64,000 bases of DNA from Dillenia suffruticosa (taxonomy: Eukaryota > Streptophyta > Magnoliopsida > Dilleniales > Dilleniaceae). Under the pieces are notes generated by a model. The model saw only the letters and a list, made by a program, of their open reading frames with translations. It was not told where the DNA came from and did not search any database. Of this stretch, positions 1-64,000 are shown piece by piece. Location of the stretch: positions 16,027,490-16,091,489 of the forward strand of contig JAVTVX010000010.1 in NCBI GenBank assembly GCA_033439265.1. Reading direction: 5' to 3'. The translations under genes and the position numbers were made by a program. Numbering within the stretch: position 1 is the first letter of the stretch; every line of letters starts with the position of its first letter.

Positions 1-844
1 TGTTTAGATTACCATTATATATACCACTTATCCATTATTTAGATATCCAATATATAAGCAATGCAACTTGTGGATCATAATACCAACGACATGTGAGTTT
101 ATTGGCATAACATTAGATTTTTTTAATCAGTTTTTAGAATGAAAAAATATGCACCAGGAGAATCAGCCTCTAAATTGGACTCTACAACTATTCGAACCAG
201 ATTAGTTGAATTTTCAGATACCGATGGTCAAGTAAAAAAAAATAAAAAATTAAAACTTGTGGAGTATAATTTTGTCACATTAATAAATGGTACACTACTA
301 GAAGAAAGGCAATAAACAATCTGTTGGCCATGATATTCATAGTGGGAGTTTAGTGGGAATATTTCAAGTCAAGTGATGCGATTAAAATCGAATCCACCAA
401 TCCAAAAAAGATTTAGACTTCCTTTAACATAGTTATTCTCTGATGGCCTCTAACCATACTAAGGGAGATGCTTCAGCTAGACGCACGAGACTTTCTTCAT
501 CAATCCATTTCTTGGATTCCCCACCAGCACAATTACAAGGAGATGGAATCTACTCGGCGGGAGATATCTTCCTGAAGCTCTCTACTAATGAAAAGCAGAT
601 TAGAATTTTAGGATTTATACGCACAAGTAACAGGAGAGGACCACCAACTCCCTTGTAGACCCTTGGGATCAATCCCAAGGTGAAGCCAGAAATTTATCAT
701 AGGGGGACAAAATCAACATATACATTTGAGTTATAATTTGATAAGACAGAGAATTATAATTTTTAAAGGGACAAACCACATCCAAATTTTAATTTTTTAA
801 AATTATATACAAAATTTTTTCCTCAAATATTAGGGGGATGGTTA

Positions 845-879
845 CCCCTCCCCCCCCCCCCCTAAGGCGGGGGGAGAGG
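845..879. repeat. Poly-C run followed by G-rich arm (hairpin-forming)
   Basis: A run of about 15 C residues is followed after a few bases by a G-rich run, so the two can pair as a short hairpin. The same structure occurs in the duplicate copy at 12336-12370 with a slightly different run length. Confidence 0.8.
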
Positions 880-1074
880 GCCTGTGTATCAGCTTTAAAC
901 CAACAAAAACTCCCATCCAAGTCTAAGCCTAATATAATGTTTGGTGGTGTATCATTGCCACTTTTAAGTTCCTAAGAACAAGTTCCAAACACTGAAGACC
1001 CAACATAAGCAACATAAAAGACTACTTAATTATATCTGCAAACTCTATGCTTTCTCACCGCTAAAAATTTAACA

Positions 1075-1257
1075 TCATTGCTTGTAGTTGGTAGCAAGCA
1101 GTTTTGAGAAGTCGGTGTATTCATCAGTGCCTATGAGGGAAAAAATCATTGCCAAATTGAATACTGAAACAGTCATCATGGTCTCAGAAGAAAGTGAAAT
1201 ACTACTATGGGGATACCATCTCATAAGAATCATGCCATATATAACTAAAGTAGTCAC
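1075..1257 (-). other. Open frame inside NPF intron 3 copy, unrecognised
   Basis: A 60-codon open frame on the minus strand sits in the third intron of the recombinant NPF copy, and its twin is at 12737-12543. The encoded stretch contains YGMILMRWYPHS and VSVFNLAMIFSLIG and is preceded by a plausible acceptor (TTAG). It could be an alternative terminal exon or a degraded fragment of another membrane-protein gene. A weak resemblance to a mitochondrial pyruvate carrier was considered but is not convincing. No function is assigned. Confidence 0.2.
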
Positions 1258-1928
1258 TAATCTTTAACAACTCTAAATAATGCTCATTTTATTGAAGCAA
1301 CCAATAAGATGTCAATAATAATAATAATAATTTGTACCTGAAGCTTTTTGAAGGCGCTCCATTCATCTTTGTCGCTGCTCCATCATGACTGCAGTAATAG
1401 TCTTCAATTCTTTTGGAAAGAGGAACCTTCATTTTTCTAATGGTTGCAACAAAAACACGAGCTAGATCCAGAAATGGACTCCCTTGTGGCTTAATGTGGC
1501 AACAAAACCGGTTTCCAAATAAGAAAATAGCTAGAGTAATCGCATTAACGACCAAACATATCCCGAAACCCCATCTCCAACTCACATTATCCTCTATGTA
1601 GACAACTGCAGTACCACTCAACATAACAAAGAAGTACATAGTGAAGAAATACCAATAAAGAAGATCTCCTGATCCTCTGTCTTATTGAATTGGTTAGCTC
1701 CCATGGTTCCTATAATGAAGCGTGTACCTCCTATCCCAATCGTTGAAAGTACTGTCGCCAGATATAGGACACTGAGTTGTGTTTTGGATGGGCTAGGGCA
1801 CATGCTTGAACCCTTTTCACAGTGTTGAGGCCTCAAGGAGTCGAGCCACACAATCAAGTTGAACAATGAGAGTCCCTACAAGTGCATGCTATATAATAGC
1901 AGTAGTAGCAGATATTGAAAAAAAAAAT

Positions 1929-60600: not shown

Positions 60601-60840
60601 TAAAAAATAATCAGAATTGCCATGGTCCAACCAGCTTGATGCATGATATGCCATTGGCCAACCAAATTAAAATTCTCATTTCAGCACCTCTAAGCATAAT
60701 TCATATAATATAACTGATAATTTAGACAGGTATAGAATCCAACATGTACCATGTGCCTCTTTCAACATGTACCATCAAAACTATTGCATAACCCATACTT
60801 GCACTATATATACCACAAAGTAAAAAACAACCTTACTGAA
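57617..60840. other. Gene-poor region downstream of the RAD51B-like pseudogene
   Basis: No gene family is recognised with confidence. AT-rich to about 58.5 kb, then more balanced. A plus-strand open frame at 60161-60361 is listed separately. Confidence 0.5.
60161..60361 (+). other. Unrecognised 66-codon open frame with protein-like composition
   Basis: The predicted peptide begins MYSGAHVYQPASSSRNSS, continues FISSPYIGLTEQERLGLTG and CTYAAKLSKEFNTTKQL, and ends in KLFPKIKINT. Its composition and amphipathic pattern look more like a real protein fragment than the AT-rich background frames. No family is assigned. It could be a lone exon, a gene relic or chance. Confidence 0.25.
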
Positions 60841-60859
60841 ACTGATTTAACAAGGCATG

Positions 60860-63800
60860 ATAAAAGCTAAATATCCTCCTTGGGACCAGCACTGTTGATC
60901 GAGAGAGCAGCAAGTTGACAACAGATTGCTCAATTGGGCTTTCCCTGAGACCAGGTTAACAACACCAAGGCTACCAAGCCCACCATGGCAATATGTGATC
61001 CAAAATGTGGCACCCAATCGAGTTATCCGAAACTAATATAGGTTTAAATAGATTGATAAAATATATTAGTAAGAATTTTTATTCCAAAAAGCAATTATCA
61101 TATATTGAATACTTTGATTTTTTTTTTTTTTTATTTGTTTCATTATTGGTTATCATTATTTCAATCATATTTATTAGCCAAAGACAAAGTGCCTGAGTAA
61201 TACAAAATTTCCACCAAAACAAGTAGTCGAACCATATTACTAACCCTTACCCCACATACCACTATGATGGTAGGTAATGTACTATATTTTTTCACCTGTG
61301 CGCAATACCATAGTTTACCGTGATCCAAGTCATTGACCACGTCAATCAAACCCATGAAGTAAACCAAGTTTTGCGCAAAACTATTAGGAAATGCAAGATA
61401 CTCTATGAAAGAGAGAGAATTGTTCTGTTATCAGATATCCAAAATAAGCTCTTTGACCTTTTTGGTGTTTGCCATCGAATTATAGGATAGATTCTGCAAT
61501 CACAAATTGGATGGCTACGGCATGAGCCCAATTATTGCCTAGAGCAGCAACAAGATGAGAATTAAATCTTTGGGGATGCCCCACTGTCTCATCTTTTCTC
61601 TATACTGCATCATATGAAATATGTTTGCATTGATGATGATGCCTGGGGCAAATGAATTTGCTTTCAGACTACAGACACTACATTGGAAAGAGTATTGACA
61701 AGCTGCATCATAACTTTGAGATCACACTTGGTTAGTCACTATAACTGCAATCCGTGAAAACTCAGTGACCGACCTGGTGACAGGATAAAAAGATTAATAT
61801 TGTCATGCAGAAGCCAATTCATTAGTTTGAACTGCAGTACTCTGGAAAATAAGAGCTTAGTAAACATACTTGATAAAAGAAATATGCCAGCCCAATGAAT
61901 TTTGCCATGGAGCCCCCAGCTTAGATTCTCTTTAACAGATTTTTCCATCCCTCAGTAATAAGACAAGACAATAGTTGACAAAAGAACATAACAATTGCTA
62001 TAATCTATTCCAGAAAGACCGAGTATATATTGGCAGATGAAGATGAACCTTGCATCAGATTCTATACATAATGATCCAGGAAAACTCAAGAGGGTTGACA
62101 GAAGAATTCACAAGAAGCAATAAGAAATAAGAACTTCAAGAACCAGACAGAACAAACAAGAGTAGCTTCTGTTAATAAAATTTCATAACAATAACGATTC
62201 TTATGTCAATGTCTATTTTGGAACAAAAGGATCAGCGTGCACCAGCGCTTACACCAGGAATGTGGAACCCAGACAAACAAGGGAGAAAATAGCATTCCAC
62301 ATTTTTCTGGCCTCCTTGATTGCAAAAAGCTTCTTGCACCAAAAATCTTACCATTTCCAAAGGAACTAGAGTTACATCTCTTCTCCATTTCCATTAGAGT
62401 TCATTTCCATCATATAATTTATTGTCTTATCTTCTTCAATTTTATCCTGATGAGAAAAGTCTATTTCAAAGTTCAAAATGGATGATTTTGCCTTATACAT
62501 GGACAGTGTCATGAGTTGGAAGGGATTTTTTATTCAACAAATGCTGATCAAGTATTTTATAGAAGTGAACTAATAAGGAAAATCAACCAACATGGTAATA
62601 CAAGAAAAAAAAAAACAATAAAAGCACATGCAATTACGAGGATATACCCCTTAATGATATGAGTGTCAAGAATGAATGAAAAGAACAATTTTGCTCAAGG
62701 AAGGAAAACATGGCAGTTAATATACCAAATATTGATAGGAAGTCAATATCTTTAATAACCCAGGTGGTGCCAATTAGGAATTTACTTACCCTGAAATAAG
62801 TGCAGTCATGCTGTCAATGACAAGCAACTTTACTTGATTTCCAGGCTGGAAATAAAAGATAATAAGAGATAAATATCAAGCAGGGTTAGACACCTAATGG
62901 CACTCGGTAGGCTTGGAAGCAAACTATTTCATAACTCGCAGCAACAAATGCACATTGTAAGCATTGCAGCAACATGATCAAATTAAAGAAACAAATACCA
63001 AGTGCAGACAACTAAAATTGTTGTTCTTAATTCATAAACTCGCAAGCAATCAAGGTAAGATTTCTCATGTTGTAACCTATTCATTAATATGCAGCTAACA
63101 AGTGCAATATGCTTTTCTAGAACTATTGAAAAGCAATAGATAAATCAGCCTCAATCCACACCTCTCTGTCAATTGAGAGAGAGTTACGGGACGCAGAACT
63201 AAAATCCTAATCAGCCATCTGCAAGAATTAAGAGGAATCAAAATTTGAGATCAGCAAAAGACCAAGGAATGGAACATAAAAACAAAAAAGATATATTCCT
63301 TACACCTCTTTTGCCATTCCATTGATATGAAATATTTCTGGCAAACTGCATGGTCCAATTTCTCGAAACCTGAGAACGTGTACCTGCAGCTCAGATTCTG
63401 ATTACACTGTTATAGATTATAAAGGTGTTGAACAACGAATGTCTGTGTCAAGTACCTTTTAGAAGTAAATTAGATTCTACATCAATGTAAATCACATGAC
63501 CATTTAAGGCTCCATATCTTGCAGGCAGTGAAGCCAACAAGGAAAGCTTCAAGCAAAATTGCAATTCTATCAAGAAAAATGAGATCGGGGTTTTGGCCTG
63601 ATATATTGGCTATTTCTGCCAACAAATATGGACTCCAAGTAATTGTGGTAGCCAAGACAGAATGGAAGTTAAAAATAAAATAAAATAATATAAAATGCTG
63701 AGAGTTCTGTATGTCATACCTGGGTCTTGCCAATTCCTGCAGGTCCAACCAACTCTGTCAATGCCCAGAAAGGTATCCCACCACATAAGGCCTCATCTGA

Positions 63801-64000
63801 TCCTCTTAAACGCGTTGAAAGAATCCCCGCCCAAAATGCTCGCTTTGATACCTTTGTTCCAGCAATAACAGCACCTAAAAAAACAAAAAGAACCAGATAC
63901 TTTTGCAAGGAAACATATAGTCAAACCAACTTAGAAAATAACTTGAATCAACTCATTGTTACAGCCAATTAATGGGACGCTTACAGTTTCATACGGAGGA
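60860..64000 (-). pseudogene. RAD51B-like recombinase gene, decayed, 5' end off window
   Basis: RAD51B is a RecA/RAD51 paralogue of the BCDX2 complex in homologous recombination. Recognisable exons, 5' to 3': 64000-63985 (PPYET), 63874-63720 (STRLRGSDEALCGGIPF, Walker A GPAGIGKTQ), 63558-63456 (CLKLSLLASLPARYG, VIYIDVES), about 63371-63305 (PEIFHINGMAKE), about 63220-63168, about 62855-62790 (Walker B QVKLLVIDSMTALISG), about 61930-61878 (SLGWHISFIK), about 61790-61680 (EFSRIAVIVTNQV), about 61563-61500 (HLVAALGNNWAHAVAI), and a terminal remnant near 60970-60860. Defects: the acceptor at 63560-63559 reads AA instead of AG; an extra base in the exon near 63210 changes the frame after ATGGCTG and gives a stop; and TGA follows TNQV in place of an Arg codon. 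The last exon is badly degraded. The Walker motifs survive, so decay is fairly recent. It sits upstream of RAP2-7 with about 13.7 kb between them. Confidence 0.82.

Follow-up and report, generated by a model that had tools for sequence, protein, structure and literature searches.

We analysed a 64,000-nucleotide stretch of the genome of Dillenia suffruticosa (hereafter the window), which corresponds to positions 16027490-16091489 of contig C10 in an assembly (G000) of 596,357,000 bases and 37 contigs. The window and a second region of the same contig (C10:21.004-21.086 Mb; hereafter the twin) are very probably copies of one block that stem from a fairly recent whole-genome duplication and have since been reciprocally fractionated. 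The two regions lie about 5 Mb apart, are collinear and are inverted relative to each other, and each has broken copies of genes that are lesion-free in the other. An earlier note, made from the sequence of the window alone, had read MPK3, NOT4 and RAD51B as broken there. It had predicted a homeologous block with intact copies of all three elsewhere in the same genome, and it had made its interpretation depend on finding one. That block exists.

When the genome was searched with exons 4-6 of the window's MPK3-like gene, identity outside the window was highest at 21.077 Mb of C10, where 113 residues matched at 88% on the opposite strand. A higher score was reached by two longer, one-exon matches to mitogen-activated protein kinase (MAPK) genes, on contigs C17 and C20, with identities of 52 and 51%. 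We studied the twin in 180 kb fetched around the C10 match. Comparison by blastn gave an inverted chain of 68 pieces, 39.8 kb aligned at 80.3% identity, which pairs window positions 8119-64000 with C10 positions 21,086,326-21,003,506. Gene-by-gene collinearity holds from MPK3 to RAD51B, and a MAPK gene beyond the window is also paired (16.118 and 20.977 Mb), with a synonymous divergence (Ks) of 0.179. Over seven window-twin gene pairs Ks was alike, ranging from 0.147 to 0.271, and divergence is in this sense uniform across the block. Judged by these values, the duplication is fairly recent.

From left to right the window carries three NPF2 genes (minus strand), MPK3 (minus), two ascorbate peroxidase (APX) genes (minus), exon 1 of an RH18-type helicase (plus), NOT4 (plus), RAP2-7 (minus) and RAD51B (minus). 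This bears out the order given in the earlier note, with the addition of the helicase relic, which had been overlooked. The order is based on lists of open reading frames, on tblastn with protein queries and on Pfam scans of frames over parts of both strands outside the NPF2 stretch. We judged the state of each gene with a purpose-written spliced protein-to-DNA aligner that tolerates frameshifts and stops. Pfam searches of spliced models returned PTR2, AP2, Pkinase, Rad51, zf-RING_4 with RRM_1, and peroxidase; the Pkinase, Rad51, NOT4 and peroxidase models tested in this way were the twin's copies. The finer names MPK3, RAP2-7 and RH18 are presumed.

The spliced models confirmed that MPK3, NOT4 and RAD51B are broken in the window, and in the twin those of MPK3, RAD51B, NOT4, both APX genes and RAP2-7 were lesion-free. 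The window's MPK3 has lost its intron-1 splice acceptor (AG to TG) and one nucleotide of exon 3 (16735-16736). Its activation motif has changed from TEY to SDY, and R207G alters the WYRAPE motif. A TEY motif in an intact kinase frame is therefore missing from the window copy, whereas the twin copy has both. Amino-acid changes fell mostly on the window branch (22, against 6 on the twin branch and 9 ambiguous; p = 0.004), at a Ks of 0.182 and a ratio of nonsynonymous to synonymous divergence (Ka/Ks) of 0.256.

RAD51B in the window has stops at 64074 and 61724 and frameshifts at 63828-63829 and 63470-63471. Its last (C-terminal) exon is missing and falls in a 1.86 kb stretch present only in the twin. 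A genome search with RAD51B gave 12 matches, of which seven were in the twin, three in or beside the window and two on other contigs, with 36% identity on C13 and 42% on C35; the last two are presumably other RecA-type genes. The sole other full set of RAD51B exons in the genome is that of the twin, on C10. Amino-acid changes again favored the window branch over the twin branch (28:7, 15 ambiguous; p = 0.0005), with a Ks of 0.224 and a Ka/Ks of 0.556.

The helicase and NOT4 are neighbours and share one gap. The interval measures 2.7 kb in the window (32560-35255) versus 14.8 kb in the twin, where it holds further helicase domains together with NOT4 exons 1-7 plus the beginning of exon 8. The helicase exon that is left in the window has lost its Walker A segment and has a frameshift at 32408, and the twin's helicase region gave DEAD, Helicase_C and CTE_SPB4 domain matches. 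Immediately upstream of the relic, window positions 31638-32079 hold two tandem copies of about 220 bases with 84.5% identity. Set against the twin's model, NOT4 in the window starts only at codon 257, within exon 8, and has frameshifts at 36116, 36303 and 36571, in-frame stops at 36436, 36948 and 36954, and a lost splice acceptor (AG to GG) near 35797. A fourth candidate frameshift, at 35722, was rejected in favor of this lost acceptor. The last NOT4 exon falls in a 2.3 kb stretch present only in the twin.

No RING or RRM match of NOT4 was found in the coding-strand frames of 28500-31500 and 31900-38100, and tblastn with a presumed NOT4 N-terminus over the window gave only weak, chance-like matches. 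The twin's NOT4 model has both zf-RING_4 and RRM_1; its reference was in part the twin's own open frame (572 codons), and in that part the model is judged clean from its open frame, not from a comparison. For NOT4 Ks was 0.196 and Ka/Ks 0.585. The simplest reading is that a single deletion brought the 3' half of NOT4 up against exon 1 of the helicase, and each remnant has further lesions of its own. The sequence that fills the gap in the window ends in a head-to-head pair of copia-type gag fragments, which stops within about 15 bases of the renewed match to NOT4 (from 35240 in the protein alignment and from 35255 in the DNA alignment). From its two disabling lesions and its Ka/Ks, MPK3 looks like the youngest of these losses, and the higher ratios of NOT4 and RAD51B make them look older.

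The loss on the other side concerns the NPF2 cluster. In the fetched 180 kb, tblastn with NPF2 copies B and C placed all NPF sequence of the twin within 21,079,883-21,086,326, where it forms three broken relics with stops and frameshifts. Eight lesions were listed for the relic that pairs with copy C, the first two of them in its weakly modelled 5' end, and 33 residues of its exon 3 are gone. The other two relics survive in fragments, and their models are weak. The one relic compared, for which copy B served as outgroup, had 39 amino-acid changes on the twin branch against 10 on the window branch (42 ambiguous; p = 4e-5), at a Ks of 0.231.

Within the window, the best solved relative of copy B, modelled from its own frames, is NPF2.10, ahead of NPF6.3, and copy C matches Pfam PTR2 at 6e-62. 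These matches place the cluster in the POT/PTR2 family, with NPF2 as its probable closest group. The earlier note had called NPF2, APX and RAP2-7 intact; this was right for the APX pair and RAP2-7, which are open, and for two clean NPF2 genes, and wrong for the left-most NPF2 gene, which is frameshifted. That gene, copy A, is a hybrid, B-like in its 5' part and C-like in its 3' part. Window positions 1-2106 and 11476-13585 are 96.5% identical copies, and copy A passes into its B-like part about 100 bases beyond an (AAG)n run (1929-2011).

The APX pair and RAP2-7 are kept in both blocks. For the two APX genes Ks was 0.271 and 0.251, and branch changes were balanced (11:12 in total, made up of 4:5 with 6 ambiguous and 7:7 with 2 ambiguous). 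Site patterns across window positions 20200-28250 and the twin's pair were orthologous at 127 sites, within-block at 32 and crossed at 12, and the APX tandem pair seems older than the block duplication. The within-block patterns are concentrated in two tracts, the trace expected of gene conversion between the tandem genes. For RAP2-7, exon-by-exon Pfam scans of frames gave no match, and the AP2 domain was found in the spliced protein. An apparent stop in this gene was rejected as an artefact of a 29-nt micro-exon that came from a weak alignment. Direct splicing (CACCAG/GT ... CAG/GAAAGAGG) yields 479 open codons in window and twin alike. RAP2-7 also contains CTGCAGCATCATCAGGATTCT, which we take to be a miR172-type site. 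Its Ks was 0.147, a value that still includes the rejected micro-exon.

With the NPF2 cluster counted as one locus, eight loci can be compared. Three are kept twice (both APX genes and RAP2-7), four are lost in the window (MPK3, RH18, NOT4 and RAD51B) and the twin has lost one (NPF2). Loss is complementary and not one-sided, and the two copies together would still hold a working set. A duplication, probably of the whole genome, yielded two copies of the block, now in mirror orientation on one contig. The four window genes have since decayed through point lesions and deletions, the twin copies staying intact, and the twin's NPF2 genes have decayed with two window NPF2 genes staying intact. Each loss may have been tolerated as the other copy covered the function.

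The earlier note had instead proposed biased fractionation, with the window in a recessive subgenome that loses genes preferentially. Four loci lost in the window versus one in the twin does lean in that direction. However, because losses of 4:1 in 64 kb give a two-sided binomial p of 0.375, they do not demonstrate a one-sided bias, and RH18 and NOT4 share a common gap, so independent events may be fewer still. Moreover, every NPF2 relic in the twin is broken, with the 39:10 excess on the twin branch for the one compared. We therefore regard biased fractionation as doubtful. That the broken genes are errors of assembly or base calling is very improbable, even though MPK3 has only two disabling lesions. 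The breakage exceeds chance or sequencing error because the twin copies are clean and the changes in MPK3 (22:6) and RAD51B (28:7) lie mainly on the window branch. Both R207G and the altered activation motif belong to the MPK3 excess. NOT4 and RAD51B each have several lesions and lack kilobase-sized stretches, and C10 is telomeric at its right end, although its left end is not.

A large inverted segmental duplication, or an isochromosome-like event, confined to this chromosome would explain the mirrored placement of both copies on a single contig with no doubling of the whole genome. Similarly close paralogues on other contigs speak against it (MPK genes on C17/C20, Ks 0.130, and on C11/C1, Ks 0.109; AP2 genes on C30/C19, Ks 0.314), and we consider it improbable. 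Four further pairs on other contigs were tried and dropped as homeologs, their Ks being 1.943 or saturated, and the remaining two of the ten pairs in this comparison lie on C10. Several results nevertheless weigh against reciprocal fractionation after a whole-genome duplication. Ks of the presumed homeolog pairs on other contigs is scattered (0.109, 0.130, 0.314 and 0.416), and two genes of the contig pair C17/C20 disagree (0.130 versus 0.416), which stops short of showing a single common event. The branch counts of MPK3, RAD51B, APX and RAP2-7 depend on presumed outgroup sequences. Lastly, changes in RAP2-7 lean to the window branch although the gene is kept twice (10:4, 23 ambiguous; p = 0.18), a count that still contains the rejected micro-exon and in which one of the ten window-branch changes is the artefactual stop.

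The earlier note further held that the window preserves a gene order that predates duplication in eudicots. Because the duplication that we see is young (Ks 0.147-0.271), the order is shown only to be older than that duplication; the twin dates it only to before an event at Ks ~0.2. The order does agree with the Arabidopsis neighbourhoods of these genes if the gene numbers presumed for them are right. A literature search by Arabidopsis Genome Initiative (AGI) code identified At2g28560 as RAD51B, and found no text on the neighbours of these genes and no paper with three of the six codes.

The mirror arrangement extends along C10, which is 38.4 Mb long. Its right end is telomeric, with 71 TTTAGGG repeats in the last 500 bases, and no telomere repeat was found in the first 500 bases at the left end. 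The telomere pattern had 7029 forward and 3790 reverse matches, with places on C1 only among the matches listed. Among the best 150 of 223 AP2 candidates, 15 loci were on C10, and 14 of these were fetched and compared within a set of 22 sequences from 21 loci (one present twice). Twelve of the 14 form six reciprocal best pairs with 84-91% identity and Ks of 0.175-0.273, and two are partnerless within that set. Inverted orientation is seen in five pairs, whose coordinates sum to 37.1-37.5 Mb, the same as for the window and the twin. The sixth (6.09 and 32.80 Mb) has the same orientation and a sum of 38.9. On this evidence C10 resembles two homeologous chromosomes placed back to back, with a join near 18.6 Mb that may be a fusion or come from scaffolding. 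We see about an even chance that it is a true palindromic chromosome, formed by end-to-end fusion of homeologs after a whole-genome duplication, in which case fractionation and any gene conversion since would have taken place within one chromosome.

Collinear twins, complementary loss and a single intact copy each of MPK3 and RAD51B are features shared with post-polyploid fractionation in general. Typically, however, such twins are on two chromosomes, and here they are on one contig, in mirror orientation and some 5 Mb apart. The Ks range overlaps that of the kiwifruit Ad-alpha duplication, for which passages in two papers give a peak at ~0.12-0.18 (PMC6804796) and an assigned range of 0-0.335 (PMC10515239). 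In passages of kiwifruit papers that date such duplications, the word 'fusion' is absent or used in another sense. In Vigna lasicarpa, homoeologous chromosomes 5 and 7 are described as fused end-to-end (PMC12295485), and C10 likewise appears to be two chromosomes joined end to end. The Vigna fusion was seen by chromosome painting, whereas the C10 join is known from the order of markers in the assembly alone. The Vigna passage is also silent on whether chromosomes 5 and 7 are homeologous to one another, whereas C10 is seemingly two copies of one chromosome.

Table 1. Features of the window (positions are those of the window)
Feature	Position	Strand	Structure and state
NPF2-type copy A	1..3260	-	exons 3260-3182, 2946-2726 and 1875-1334, rest off the window; frameshift 1655-1656
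NPF2-type copy B	5543..9501	-	4 exons, 550 aa, lesion-free
NPF2-type copy C	10603..13850	-	4 exons (B residues 18-549), lesion-free; model without start codon
MPK3-like pseudogene	15359..17967	-	6 exons
Cytosolic-type ascorbate peroxidase 1	20501..22846	-	8 exons modelled, 247 codons (last codons and stop outside the model), lesion-free
Cytosolic-type ascorbate peroxidase 2	25539..27851	-	9 exons, 250 codons, lesion-free
RH18-type DEAD-box helicase relic (presumed name)	32219..32474	+	exon 1 only
Copia-type gag fragments, head-to-head pair	34036..35254		~34036-34585 and 34680-35253
NOT4-like pseudogene	35240..37052	+	exons 1-7 and start of exon 8 gone (RING, RRM)
RAP2-7 (TOE-type AP2; presumed name)	43854..47191	-	10 exons, 479 aa, lesion-free, two AP2 stretches
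RAD51B-like pseudogene	61489..64000, on to 64636 beyond the window	-	spliced model, completed with 1.1 kb outside

The G+C content of the window is 0.30-0.39 in 4 kb steps, and Rfam and tRNA scans gave no match. Two short stretches, 42152-42354 and 56894-57138, are 92% identical to the twin, versus the chain average of 80.3%. No gene was identified in them, and they are perhaps regulatory.

The case is a clear but ordinary one of gene loss after genome doubling. It turns a guess about synteny into a tested example, in which the predicted intact homeolog was found and the exact lesions are known on each side. The window alone is misleading, since its apparently one-sided decay turns reciprocal once the twin is seen. 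With MPK3 intact on one copy and NPF2 intact on the other, the two blocks offer a neat setting in which to date single losses. If C10 is truly a mirror chromosome, it would also provide a test of recombination between homeologs within one chromosome.

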